Shown here one piece after another: positions 22,079 through 25,411 of a DNA stretch of 64,000 bases. Positions within the stretch are counted from its first letter, which is position 1. Each line of letters starts with the position of its first letter. Both the position numbers and the translations under genes were made by a program. The stretch comes from Acinetobacter colistiniresistens (lineage in GTDB: Bacteria; Pseudomonadota; Gammaproteobacteria; Pseudomonadales; Moraxellaceae): positions 1,116,001-1,180,000 of the forward strand of contig NZ_CP102099.1 in assembly GCF_024582815.1 (NCBI RefSeq), written 5' to 3'. Below the pieces are notes generated by a model. It was given only the letters and a program-made list of their open reading frames with translations, ran no database searches and was not told where the DNA came from.

Positions 22079-22909
22079 ATGGAACCTATGGTGGTTATGG
22101 CTGCGCGTGCGGCTCAAACAGTTGGTCAAGAGCTTTTAAAGGCACATCAGAATCGTCATAAACTCGATTTACAAGTTGAAGAAAAAGGCATTGATGGTCC
22201 AGTAACGCGTGTTGATCGTTACCTGGAAGAATTGACAATTGAAACGCTTCGTAAAAGTTATAAAAACCACAGCTTCCTTGGTGAAGAGTTTGGTATGCAA
22301 GAAGGTAAAGGTCACGATGCAGATTGGTGCTGGGTGATTGATCCTTTAGATGGTACGCAAAACTTTATCAACGGCTTTCCGCATTTCTGTATTTCGATTG
22401 CTGTACAACATAAAGGTGTGACTCAACACGGTGTGATTTATGATCCAGTCCGTGATGAATTATTCTCTGCTAGCCGTGGTCGCGGTGCAGTCATGAATCA
22501 ACGCCGTATTCGTGTCAATGTAAAAGATAGCTTGGAAAATACTTTCCTTGCTGTCGGTCATCCGTACCGTGCAAAGCGCAATGGTGAAATCGTTTCTTAT
22601 GCAGAACAGCATTTCGCTTCATTATTGGCTGTAACTAAAGCAGGCGCACAAATCCGTCGCGGTGGTTCTGCTGCATTAGATTTGGCTTATGTTGCTGCTG
22701 GTCGTTTTGATGGTTTCTTTGAATTAGGCTTAAAACCGTGGGATATCGCTGCGGGTGAGTTAATTGTGAAAGAAGCAGGTGGTGTTGTGGTTGATGCGCG
22801 TGGCGGTAGTGAATCATTTGACAATGGTCAAGTGCTTGCATGTTCGCTTAAAATGTTAAAACCATTGATGCAAGCCGTTGTCCCAGCTTGGGGTGATGCT
22901 GCAAAATAA
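22079..22909 (+). CDS. suhB: Inositol-1-monophosphatase family protein
   Basis: This Mg2+-dependent phosphatase of the IMPase fold has 276 residues. The metal-binding motifs are FLGEEFG (about residue 65-71), WVIDPLDGTQNFINGFPHF (about 84-102) and LKPWDIAAGELIVKEAGG (about 220). In E. coli SuhB also binds NusA/RNA polymerase in the rRNA antitermination complex; whether that holds here is inferred only. Its promoter region contains an extended -10 within an inverted repeat. A terminator follows within 50 bases. Confidence 0.93.
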   Translation: MEPMVVMAARAAQTVGQELLKAHQNRHKLDLQVEEKGIDGPVTRVDRYLEELTIETLRKSYKNHSFLGEEFGMQEGKGHDADWCWVIDPLDGTQNFINGFPHFCISIAVQHKGVTQHGVIYDPVRDELFSASRGRGAVMNQRRIRVNVKDSLENTFLAVGHPYRAKRNGEIVSYAEQHFASLLAVTKAGAQIRRGGSAALDLAYVAAGRFDGFFELGLKPWDIAAGELIVKEAGGVVVDARGGSESFDNGQVLACSLKMLKPLMQAVVPAWGDAAK

Positions 22910-22921
22910 TTTGTAGATGTC

Positions 22922-22955
22922 AAAAAAGCTCTCAATATTTGAGGGCTTTTTATTT
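22922..22955 (+). terminator. Terminator of suhB
   Basis: An AAAAGCTCTCAA / TTGAGGGCTTTT stem (one G-U pair) with a 3-nt loop is followed by a T-rich run. Confidence 0.85.
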
Positions 22956-23494
22956 TGGAGAAATTTTTGCAGATTCAGAGTGAGCTTTATTGACATGAAT
23001 TGTGGTTAAAATTCTGAAAATTATTTGAGAACGAAAACAAGATCTAATGGATGGGTCTTTGAGTTTTAACTTACTGATATTTTGAATTAAAGAGTTAAAA
23101 ACCTATTGAAGAATGTGGGTGTATTTATTGGTGTGATCGAAGTTGGAAGGCCAATAAAAAACTTACCGCATAGAAAAACCAACTAAAAAACGTGACTTTT
23201 AAAATTATTCTGCTATAATCCGCCAACGCACTTAAATTCCAGTTCATTACCTGAACATTCAGTTCTATTCATATTAGCGCACGCTGTCCATAGAGAGGAC
23301 CACATCTTGCGCCCAAATCGCTTAGCGATTCTTCAGGTTGAGGCAGTAATCAAGCGTGCGTTTAGTCCACATCGTCGTTATTCGGATCGCCGCTGAATTT
23401 CATCTATTTTCAGCTTGAGTCGCTTTGCCGCTTGTTGCCGATGTCTATTTTTTGTATTTATTAAAATGGAGCACCCTTTAGGGTGAAACTCTCT
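22956..23494 (+). promoter_or_regulatory. Promoter and long structured leader of the DEAD-box helicase
   Basis: This gene-free stretch has no open frame with coding character. An extended -10 TGCTATAAT (hexamer 23214-23219) with GTGACT 16 bases upstream predicts transcription from about 23226, giving a leader of about 270 nt. The leader folds on paper into two domains. Domain 1 is closed by CGCACGCT (23278-23285) with AGCGTGCG (23353-23360). It contains the hairpins GTCC/GGAC (23286-23300) and AATCGC-TTA-GCGATT (23316-23330). Domain 2 is closed by ACATCG (23369-23374) with CGATGT (23439-23444) and contains GCTGAA/TTCAGC (23392-23414). A CACCC-TTTA-GGGTG hairpin (23472-23485) lies right before the start codon. 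Confidence 0.65.
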
Positions 23495-25411
23495 ATGAGC
23501 AAAACTTTTGCCGAATTTTCTTTGCACGAAACTTTACAACAAGCCCTAGAAGGTTTGGGTTTTACTACGCCAACTCCTGTGCAAGAACAAGCGATTCCAG
23601 CTGCGTTAGAAGGAAAAGATTTATTGGTTTCAAGCCAGACTGGTTCTGGTAAAACAGCAGCATTCTTACTTCCTACATTAAACGCGTTAGCGGGTCAGGA
23701 AACTTTCGTGCCATTTAAAGAGCGCATGAAAGCTGTCACCCAGCCGACAATTTTAGTTATCTCTCCTACACGTGAATTGGCTCAACAAGTTAGCCAAGAC
23801 GCGATTGCATTTGTACGTCACATGAAAGGTGTTCGTATTGCTGCAATTATGGGGGGTATGCCTTTTGGTAAACAAATCCAACAGCTTAAAGGTGCACAAG
23901 TAGTTGTTGCGACTCCAGGTCGTTTACTTGACCTTGTAAACCGTCGTCAATTAAAGCTTGATAAAGTTGAATCTTTAATCGTTGACGAAGCTGACCGTAT
24001 GCTTGATCTTGGCTTTGCTGAAGATTTAGAAGCGATTGGTGAATTAGCTGCTAACCGTAACCAAACGTTGATGTTCTCTGCAACTTTTGCAGATCGTATT
24101 ATCCGTCTTGCTGAACGCATGATGAATGATCCACAACGTATTGCGATTGAAACGGGTCACAGCACCAACACTGATGTAACGCAAACATTACATTGGACGG
24201 ATGGTTTTGAACACAAGAAAAAATTATTAACACATTGGTTGTCTGATGAGTCAGTAGACCAAGCTGTTGTGTTTGCAAGTACCCAAGAAGATACTGATAT
24301 GCTGGCTGAAGAGTTGGCTGAAGCAGGTCACTCAGTTGTTGCGTTGCACGGTGCAATGCCACAAACAGTACGTAACCGTCGTTTACGTAGCATTCGTGAA
24401 GGTCGTGCAAAAATCTTGGTTGCAACTGACGTAGCAGCACGTGGTTTAGACGTACCAACCATTTCTCACGTCATTAACTTCGGTTTACCGATGAAAAATG
24501 AAGACTATGTACACCGTATTGGTCGTACAGGTCGTGCTGGCCGTACAGGTCAGGCGGTAACTTTAGCGACTTACCGTGAGCGTGGTAAAATCCGTGCTTT
24601 AGAAGATTATTTAGATGCACGTTTAAATGTATCTGAAATCGAAGGTTTAGAGCCATCTCCACCTCCTGCACGTTCAGGCCGTGATGGCGGTGGTCGTGGT
24701 CGCGGTGGTCGTGATGGCGGCGGTCGTGGTCGCGGTGGTTTCGGCGGTGGTCGTCGTTTTGAAGGTGAAGGTAACTTCAAACGTCGTGAAGGCAGTGATG
24801 ATCGTCCACGTCGTAGCTTCGATGACAAACCTCGTGGCGAACGTCCATCATTTGGTGGTGAAGATCGTCCACGTCGCGAATTTAATTCAGATCGTCCACG
24901 CCGTGAAGGTGGTTTCGAAGACCGTCCACGTCGCGAGTTCAACTCTGATCGTCCACGCCGTGAAGGTGGTTTTGAAGACCGTCCACGCCGTGAGTTCAAT
25001 TCAGATCGCCCACGTCGTGAAGGTGGTTTTGATGATCGTCCAAAGCGTAGCTTCGGTGGTGAAGACCGTCCACGTCGCGAGTTCAACTCTGACCGTCCAC
25101 GTCGTGAAGGTGGCTTCAATGATAAACCACGTTTTGATTCGAATGATGACAACCGTGGCAACCGTGTAGACTACAAACCACGTCGTGAAGGTAGCTTCGG
25201 TGACCGTCCAAAACGTGATTTTGGTGATCGTCCACAACGTGAAGGTGGCTTTGGCGACCGTCCAAAGCGTAGCTTTGGTGATGACCGTCCAAAACGTAGT
25301 TTCGGTGGTGATGATCGTCCAAAACGTAAGTTTGGTAGCGATGACCGCCCAGCACGTGGTTCACGTGAAGAAACTTTCGGTGGCGACCGTCGTCGCAAAA
25401 ACGATTTTTAA
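23495..25411 (+). CDS. DEAD-box ATP-dependent RNA helicase with RG-rich repeat tail
   Basis: This RNA-unwinding ATPase is of the RhlE/DeaD type. From residue 1 to about 380 it has all helicase motifs: the Q motif, SSQTGSGKTAAF (Walker A), PTRELA, TPGRLLD, VDEADRMLDLG (DEAD box), SATF, and HRIGRTGRAGR. From about residue 395 the tail is low-complexity and rich in Gly, Arg, Asp and Pro. It starts with RGG clusters and goes on to repeats of DRPRREFNSDRPRREGGFE. Such tails bind RNA without sequence preference and can drive condensation. The ATG at 23495 gives MSKTFAEF. A long structured leader, as in cold-shock helicase genes, precedes it. Confidence 0.93.
   Translation: MSKTFAEFSLHETLQQALEGLGFTTPTPVQEQAIPAALEGKDLLVSSQTGSGKTAAFLLPTLNALAGQETFVPFKERMKAVTQPTILVISPTRELAQQVSQDAIAFVRHMKGVRIAAIMGGMPFGKQIQQLKGAQVVVATPGRLLDLVNRRQLKLDKVESLIVDEADRMLDLGFAEDLEAIGELAANRNQTLMFSATFADRIIRLAERMMNDPQRIAIETGHSTNTDVTQTLHWTDGFEHKKKLLTHWLSDESVDQAVVFASTQEDTDMLAEELAEAGHSVVALHGAMPQTVRNRRLRSIREGRAKILVATDVAARGLDVPTISHVINFGLPMKNEDYVHRIGRTGRAGRTGQAVTLATYRERGKIRALEDYLDARLNVSEIEGLEPSPPPARSGRDGGGRGRGGRDGGGRGRGGFGGGRRFEGEGNFKRREGSDDRPRRSFDDKPRGERPSFGGEDRPRREFNSDRPRREGGFEDRPRREFNSDRPRREGGFEDRPRREFNSDRPRREGGFDDRPKRSFGGEDRPRREFNSDRPRREGGFNDKPRFDSNDDNRGNRVDYKPRREGSFGDRPKRDFGDRPQREGGFGDRPKRSFGDDRPKRSFGGDDRPKRKFGSDDRPARGSREETFGGDRRRKNDF
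24863..25120 (+). repeat. 57-bp repeats coding the helicase tail
   Basis: Three tandem 57-bp units (24863-24919, 24920-24976 and 24977-25033), a 30-base interruption, and a fourth unit (25064-25120) each encode DRPRREFNSDRPRREGGF plus one variable residue. Third-position differences between units show the protein repeat is conserved beyond the DNA. Confidence 0.9.

Follow-up and report, generated by a model that had tools for sequence, protein, structure and literature searches.

To our knowledge, split ribosome-binding sites (RBS) are known chiefly from phage T4. For the T4 genes 38 and 25, the excerpted text of one paper describes an RNA structure that shortens the distance between the Shine-Dalgarno sequence (SD) and the AUG from 22 to 5 and from 27 to 11 nt, respectively, and lower initiation once the structure of such a split RBS is destabilised (PMC3014915). 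Long leaders before DEAD-box helicase genes are described in Caulobacter (rhlE) as well as in Pseudomonas syringae, where they measure 227 nt for csdA and 213 nt for the cold rhlE transcript; according to the authors, csdA and rhlE of P. syringae have no regulatory sequences in common (PMC10783127, in excerpt). In addition, autoregulation of a helicase was reported for crhR of Synechocystis (PMC3485376, in excerpt). As far as these excerpts reach, long leaders or autoregulation of DEAD-box helicase genes in other organisms and the split RBS in T4 are known already.

The locus compared here with these systems lies in a stretch of 64,000 nt from Acinetobacter colistiniresistens, called the window in the following. 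It carries a gene for a DEAD-box RNA helicase of a family linked to cold. On comparative sequence grounds, the RNA upstream of the start codon is reasonably likely to be a cis-regulatory 5' leader of a CsdA/RhlE-like helicase gene with a split RBS, and the amount of helicase made is probably set by the folding of this leader. As in the T4 genes 38 and 25, the SD lies more than 20 nt from the AUG with a structure in between, which here is predicted to shorten the distance from 23-28 to 7-10 nt; the hairpin restoring the spacing, which defines a split RBS, would be the covarying hairpin P8. Unlike in T4, it belongs to a chromosomal helicase gene, abuts the SD (0 nt), follows a two-domain leader and is conserved, with compensatory changes, in five genera, and the SD has a second, sequestering partner (predicted). 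The long leader itself is shared with Caulobacter rhlE and with csdA and rhlE of P. syringae, but a split RBS is not mentioned in the excerpts on the Caulobacter, P. syringae and Synechocystis helicase leaders. The deaD (csdA) gene of Escherichia coli K-12 belongs to the same broad helicase family and also has an upstream leader; there, GAGG is found 12 nt from the ATG, and the 45 nt before the ATG contain no GGAG. The element resembles RNA thermometers and cspA-type cold-shock leaders in that its RBS may be controlled by structure, but it has no match in Rfam at the gathering score and its RBS hairpin is predicted to stay unmelted in the growth range.

A literature search outside supplements and most subscription papers gave no work on this leader among the matches listed. 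The main texts of two surveys (PMC11109978, PMC8632094) contain neither Acinetobacter nor Moraxella nor DEAD, and their one and two mentions of helicase, respectively, are unrelated; likewise, helicase, DEAD or leader does not occur in the main text of the TSS-EMOTE paper on A. baumannii (PMC5094136). The leader element and its combination with a split RBS are new in that they are absent among the literature matches listed.

The helicase gene starts with ATG 23495. Its best NCBIfam model is CsdA with 448 bits, which is under the model's cutoff of 890, and over 382 residues its core does not differ from that of several Acinetobacter species. The Arg/Gly/Asp-rich repeat run at the C-terminus (24680-25408) is built of repeat units of 15 to 87 bases, and close orthologs (loci L112-L120) have open frames of 555 to 701 aa. 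The upstream neighbour, ending at 22909, is an inositol-monophosphatase-like gene (NCBIfam score under the cutoff). Just 3' of it an inverted repeat with a T-run (22920-22955) shows weak matches to Phe/Trp leader models; the element looks like an ordinary terminator and is not listed by the terminator pattern scan. The extended -10 TGCTATAAT upstream of the leader ends with base 23219, which would put the transcription start near 23225-23226, where helix P1 begins. Promoter-like sites are not enriched in this region of the window (3 found, 3.3 expected from shuffles). The end of the TANNNT box lies 5-6 nt 5' of P1 in 153 of 153 leaders (154 minus L166, which is cut by a contig end; the set is redundant between loci and genomes). 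The length of about 270 nt given in the preliminary description is thereby upheld, as is, for frames of substantial length, its statement that the leader holds no open frame: on the plus strand the longest ORF lying entirely within the leader, counted from 20 aa upwards, has 29 aa and a TTG start. The features are collected in Table 1.

Table 1 Features of the helicase locus and its leader (positions of the window; L, loci; g, genera)
Feature	Position	Strand	Basis or remark
Promoter (putative): -35-like GTGACT, 16 nt, extended -10 TGC-TATAAT	23192..23219	+	sequence; TANNNT conservation
5' leader of helicase mRNA	23226..23494	+	alignment of 79 distinct sequences; domain-1 model R1
Domain 1, closed by P1: ACGCAC 23226-23231 / GUGCGU 23356-23361	23226..23361	+	
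P2: ACCUGAA 23249-23255 / UUCAGGU 23332-23338	23249..23338	+	126/126 cells, one compensatory event
P3 outer: GCGCA 23277-23281 / UGCGC 23308-23312	23277..23312	+	three compensatory events, 15 leaders
P3 inner: GUCC / GGAC, loop AUAGAGA	23286-23289 / 23297-23300	+	three compensatory events, 15 leaders
P4 hairpin AAUCGC/GCGAUU	23316..23330	+	seven both-sided pair changes, 16 leaders
Domain 2, closed by P5: ACAUCG 23369-23374 / CGAUGU 23439-23444	23369..23444	+	
Hairpin inside domain 2: GCUGAA / UUCAGC	23392-23397 / 23409-23414	+	
A/U-rich linker	23445..23466	+	sequence; A/U-rich in aligned rows
Shine-Dalgarno UGGAG, core GGAG 23468-23471	23467..23471	+	23 nt before AUG
P8 hairpin CACCC-UUUA-GGGUG, 0 nt after GGAG	23472..23485	+	
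P9 stem: UGGAG 23467-23471 / CUCUA 23491-23495, overlaps A of AUG	23467..23495	+	
DEAD-box RNA helicase gene, 638 aa, Arg/Gly-rich C-terminal repeats	23495..25411	+	PF00270, PF00271
Leaders in other genera			g10: L114-L117; g8: L119; g12: L118, L167; g16: L120

The window together with 80 Acinetobacter loci gave 79 distinct sequences, whose alignment is conserved from the 5' arm of P1 through the ATG. R1, a covariance model built on domain 1, has one match apiece in 178 of 348 genomes of the family, which we take to be the Moraxellaceae; 172 of these genomes belong to the same genus, four to g10 and one each to g8 and g16. At least three genomes of the same genus (65, 80 and 90% complete) lack a match among the 20 misses listed, which are ordered with the same genus first and stand beside 150 further ones. 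Among 293 genomes across the order, R1 matches only G000 and one other genome of the same genus, and the search for helicase orthologs (E <= 1e-150) finds the same two. Homologous leaders upstream of an orthologous helicase (75-81% identical) exist in four other genera. R1 is blind to g12, whose leaders L118 and L167 were recognised by eye; L166, also of g12, was dropped on account of its cut leader, and in the fourth g12 genome (G037) no ortholog was found at E <= 1e-150. Loci L121-L133, with best matches of 45-54% identity, entered the motif scan only. Where examined, leader and helicase gene co-occur, and judging by the alignments the leader is inherited along with the helicase gene in part of the family and is a real, conserved cis element of it. 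Rfam 15 gives no match at the gathering score in the 64 kb window, and below this score there are sub-threshold rows only near the leader. A structured and undescribed cis-regulatory leader, as had been proposed, is thus supported by its presence in five genera, by both-sided changes in six of seven helices and by the lack of an Rfam family. However, the preliminary description had missed the hairpin between SD and AUG, which is the most telling part.

The SD reads UGGAG in 43 of 44 distinct segments and UGGAC in the remaining one. Its gap to the AUG is 23-28 nt in all 44, a distance beyond the normal one, as in a split RBS. Directly behind the SD, at offset 0, every one of the 44 segments has an uninterrupted stem (G-U allowed), with 5 bp in 38 and 6 bp in six of them; base-shuffled versions of the ten segments listed have such a stem in 0.1-6.5% of cases. 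Nine five-pair versions of P8 with loops of 3-7 nt occur: CACCC/GGGUG in 35 segments, UGUCC/GGACA in two, and CGCCG/CGGUG, CGCCC/GGGCG, CGUCC/GGGCG, ACCUA/UAGGU, CGCUC/GGGCG, CACCU/AGGUG and CGUCG/CGACG in one each. If P8 is excised, 9 nt (33 segments), 10 nt (nine segments) or 7 nt (two segments, both of g12) are left before the AUG. In an alignment of 18 representatives, 90 of 90 cells of P8 are paired and 15 of them show double changes, with a covariation score of 0.590, and none of these three values was reached by any of 500 shuffles; the number of both-sided pairs was reached by 14 and that of pair types by 147 of the 500. Registers slid along the alignment pair in at most 43.3%. Two g12 rows had been trimmed before the ATG to fix the register; untrimmed, the alignment gives 93.3% paired and 11 double-change cells, still reached by 0 of 500 shuffles. 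On the helicase tree P8 underwent eight compensatory events and no breaks. Its predicted pairing probability is 0.81-1.0 in seven of eight whole leaders and 0.43 in L119.

When 2735 candidate starts from the window and the 80 loci, many of them overlapping or orthologous, were scanned for this layout, 69 matches resulted, all of them helicase starts (69 of the 81 covered). L106 was dropped as the start-codon pattern failed on it. In the L052 group (six leaders) the best-stem routine picks another stem, and the offset-0 tests recover the usual P8. The leader of A. baylyi (L071) has the same layout. Furthermore, the SD can pair with CUCU and the A of the AUG to form the lower stem P9. With G-U counted as a pair, all five pairs are possible in 40 of 44 segments, and four of the five in L113, L118, L167 and L120. 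The 5' side of P9 is the SD and hence fixed, so P9 rests on complementarity and not on two-sided covariation. Sequences of the type YTYY before the AUG in two of 62 starts came from overlapping loci and were excluded as background.

Upstream of the linker the leader folds, by comparison, into two domains. The preliminary description had named two long-range closing stems; two closed domains and the stem ACAUCG/CGAUGU (P5) were right, but the first stem, CGCACGCT/AGCGTGCG, found no support. It pairs in 85.3% of cells in 17 Acinetobacter leaders, a value which 288 of 500 shuffles reach as well, and was rejected with its last pair failing in nine of the 17. Its 3' arm overlaps GUGCGU, the conserved partner of the 5'-terminal ACGCAC in P1. 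P1 is paired in 107 of 108 cells in 18 leaders, with no both-sided changes and one break; one pair is also broken in A. calcoaceticus L048 and L064 (3' arm AUGCGU), which were for this reason left out of the domain-1 set. P2 reads GCCUGAA/UUCAGGC in the four other genera. An extension of P2 by AUUAC/GUAAU was rejected by eye on bases that change without their partners in L044, L112 and g10. All leaders read have a local hairpin GUUC (23242-23245) / GAAC (23253-23256), both motifs having been required by the extraction pattern; since its GAA is also part of P2, only one of the two can form at a time, and a switch inside domain 1 is possible. The loop of P3 with its flank (23290-23296) is complementary to the start region (23488-23495) over 8 nt. 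In the other genera P4 has a different sequence but is kept as a hairpin. P5 pairs in 108 of 108 cells (18 leaders), with one pair-keeping change on both sides and six on one side, and its arms remain RCAUCG/CGAUGY across the size variants. The distance between them is 66 to 276 nt in the nine leaders measured; in most domain 2 takes 66-90 nt, in L113 139 nt, and in L118, L167 and L120 225-276 nt, as if hairpins had been inserted.

The covariation check proposed earlier is nearly uninformative within Acinetobacter because the stems hardly vary there (five helices in 17 leaders: 99.2% of cells pair, and one of 28 pairs is changed on both sides); the other genera, once added, supply the both-sided changes and decide. 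Parsimony over 18 representatives from five genera counts 23 both-sided events, 13 one-sided pair-keeping ones and one break, on a FastTree tree of the helicase core with an arbitrary root. The both-sided events fall on P2 (1), P3 outer (3), P3 inner (3), P4 (7), P5 (1) and P8 (8), with none on P1. In P4 the neighbouring changes are replacements of the whole hairpin, so that independent episodes are fewer than seven. P3 in g12 and g16 and P4 in L119 and L120 were left uncounted as their arms are ambiguous. When the 3' arms were re-dealt among the taxa, a control which ignores relatedness, the observed pairing was reached in 1 (P3), 6 (P4), 32 (P5) and 0 (P8) of 5000 trials. The helices in the event count and the arm shuffling were hand-picked from anchors and local folds, which biases both towards structure. 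Local minimum-energy folds of 16 leaders place hairpins at the P3 and P4 sites, with a register sometimes shifted in the divergent genera. The folding energy of the whole leader is ordinary (z -1.16; 12 of 100 shuffles as good), so the support for the fold is comparative. In the free fold of the window leader P8 is present and P1 and P5 are missing, and among eight whole leaders folded the pairing probability exceeds 0.5 for P1 in two, for P5 in two and for P8 in seven; the comparative fold thus usually differs from the predicted energy minimum.

From the complementarity of UGGAG and CUCUA together with P8 it follows that the lower stem could close the site and the upper one could bridge it. 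P8 would fold away the extra bases and bring the GGAG effectively 7-10 nt from the AUG, and this spacing after folding is presumably the functional one. For an effective SD spacing, 9-10 nt is rather long. In the OFF state the weaker P9 would keep the SD and the start codon closed; for initiation P9 would have to open with P8 staying shut. By analogy with the T4 genes, P8 should aid translation, and P9 should hinder it until opened. Bridging by P8 and gating by P9, taken jointly, are considered rather probable. The ribosome might wait on the A/U-rich linker, a step to which we give slightly less than even confidence; the linker is a possible standby site or nuclease site. Tentative and rather doubtful is the last step, by which domains 1 and 2 would shield the 5' end and make the gate depend on the RNA-unwinding capacity of the cell or on temperature. 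The simplest coupling would be that the helicase acts on its own leader. Since DEAD-box helicases act on short helices, the leader of the helicase's own mRNA readily suggests itself as a substrate. Both stems would become stronger in the cold, and this is where a lack of helicase would make itself felt; autoregulation via the leader is plausible. Domains 1 and 2 may serve as a 5'-end shield, as a landing site for the helicase or as a scaffold holding the linker open.

Alternatively, domains 1 and 2 could be an operator to which the helicase, or some other RNA-binding protein, binds and thereby represses translation or directs the mRNA to decay, with the RBS hairpin being secondary. The conserved multi-helix domains with their both-sided changes would suit such a site, as would the autoregulation reported for CrhR (PMC3485376, in excerpt) and suggested for Caulobacter RhlE with its UTR of 186 nt (PMC5472812, in excerpt). 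However, domain 2 varies in size between genera, which speaks against a compact and specific site in it, and the operator is considered somewhat unlikely.

The hairpin of P8 and P9 could also be a plain sequestering structure or RNA thermometer, OFF when folded and ON when melted by heat or helicase, and bridge nothing. UGGAG/CUCUA is formed completely in the predicted free fold of eight of the 13 isolated segments listed besides being possible in most others, and the predicted energy of the RBS segment weakens from -17.1 kcal/mol at 10 C to -10.0 at 37 C. However, it is still -3.7 at 65 C, and in all 13 segments listed it stays negative at 50 and 65 C, so that P8 would be needlessly strong for a thermometer of the growth range. 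Moreover, melting of P8 would leave the raw gap of 23-28 nt, and the effective gap is held at 7-10 nt though stem sequence and loop length vary. Of the thermometer suggested earlier there remains that the SD can be sequestered; as the hairpin is predicted to be folded well above growth temperature, this explanation is regarded as unlikely.

Stabilisation of the mRNA could be the chief role of the leader, the 5'-terminal P1 shielding it from end-dependent decay. In each of the 153 leaders P1 begins approximately where transcription is inferred to start, and for rhlE of Caulobacter the UTR is reported to increase expression, probably because it stabilises the mRNA (PMC5472812, in excerpt). But P3-P5 and the hairpin between SD and AUG are left unexplained, which makes this reading quite improbable. 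Still less can be said for a block of initiation by pairing of the P3 loop AUAGAGA with UCUCUAU at the start codon, as a pseudoknot or alternative fold. The MFE of the window leader uses this pairing, and a Watson-Crick run of 8 nt, equalled by 0.3-0.7% of loop shuffles, is shared by four loop/start combinations, that of the window among them (83 of the 150 leaders scored, a redundant set), followed by 7 nt in the L011 (1.4% of shuffles) and 6 nt in the L149 combination (3.2%). Yet other Acinetobacter combinations reach only 4-5 nt, as long as in 11-50% of shuffles, and 2 nt are left in L113 and in the leaders scored from other genera (L114, L117 and L119), the latter keeping CUCU without the loop; the block is very unlikely. 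Control by coupling or attenuation through a short upstream ORF (AUG 23466, MEHPLG stop, overlapping SD and P8) is hardly credible: the ORF is seen by eye in the window and the Acinetobacter rows sharing its loop phase, and E. coli deaD is overlapped by the small ORF yrbN, but L112, L114-L118, L120 and L167 have UUG instead of AUG, the phase of the stop moves with loop length and no SD of its own was seen by eye, so it was rejected on conservation of start codon and phase. A separate small RNA, also suggested earlier, finds no support: a terminator-like plus-strand site is lacking inside the leader, and the 153 leaders run on into the start codon.

Returning to the split RBS with its gate, a chromosomal example over five genera with nine stem versions would show that a spacer hairpin can be a stable regulatory device. 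An extension that we regard as unlikely is that the two-storey RBS hairpin senses helicase activity, mild unwinding opening P9 and thereby starting translation, and an excess opening P8 as well. If true, the opening of P8 would part the SD from the AUG and shut off translation, which would amount to a bell-shaped, self-limiting and cold-responsive control of helicase synthesis. P8 and P9 are also a concrete target, simple to mutate, for studies of how bacteria adjust the amount of a DEAD-box helicase. Furthermore, the leader adds a structured RNA absent from Rfam 15 to a genus that includes hospital bacteria and the laboratory species A. baylyi.
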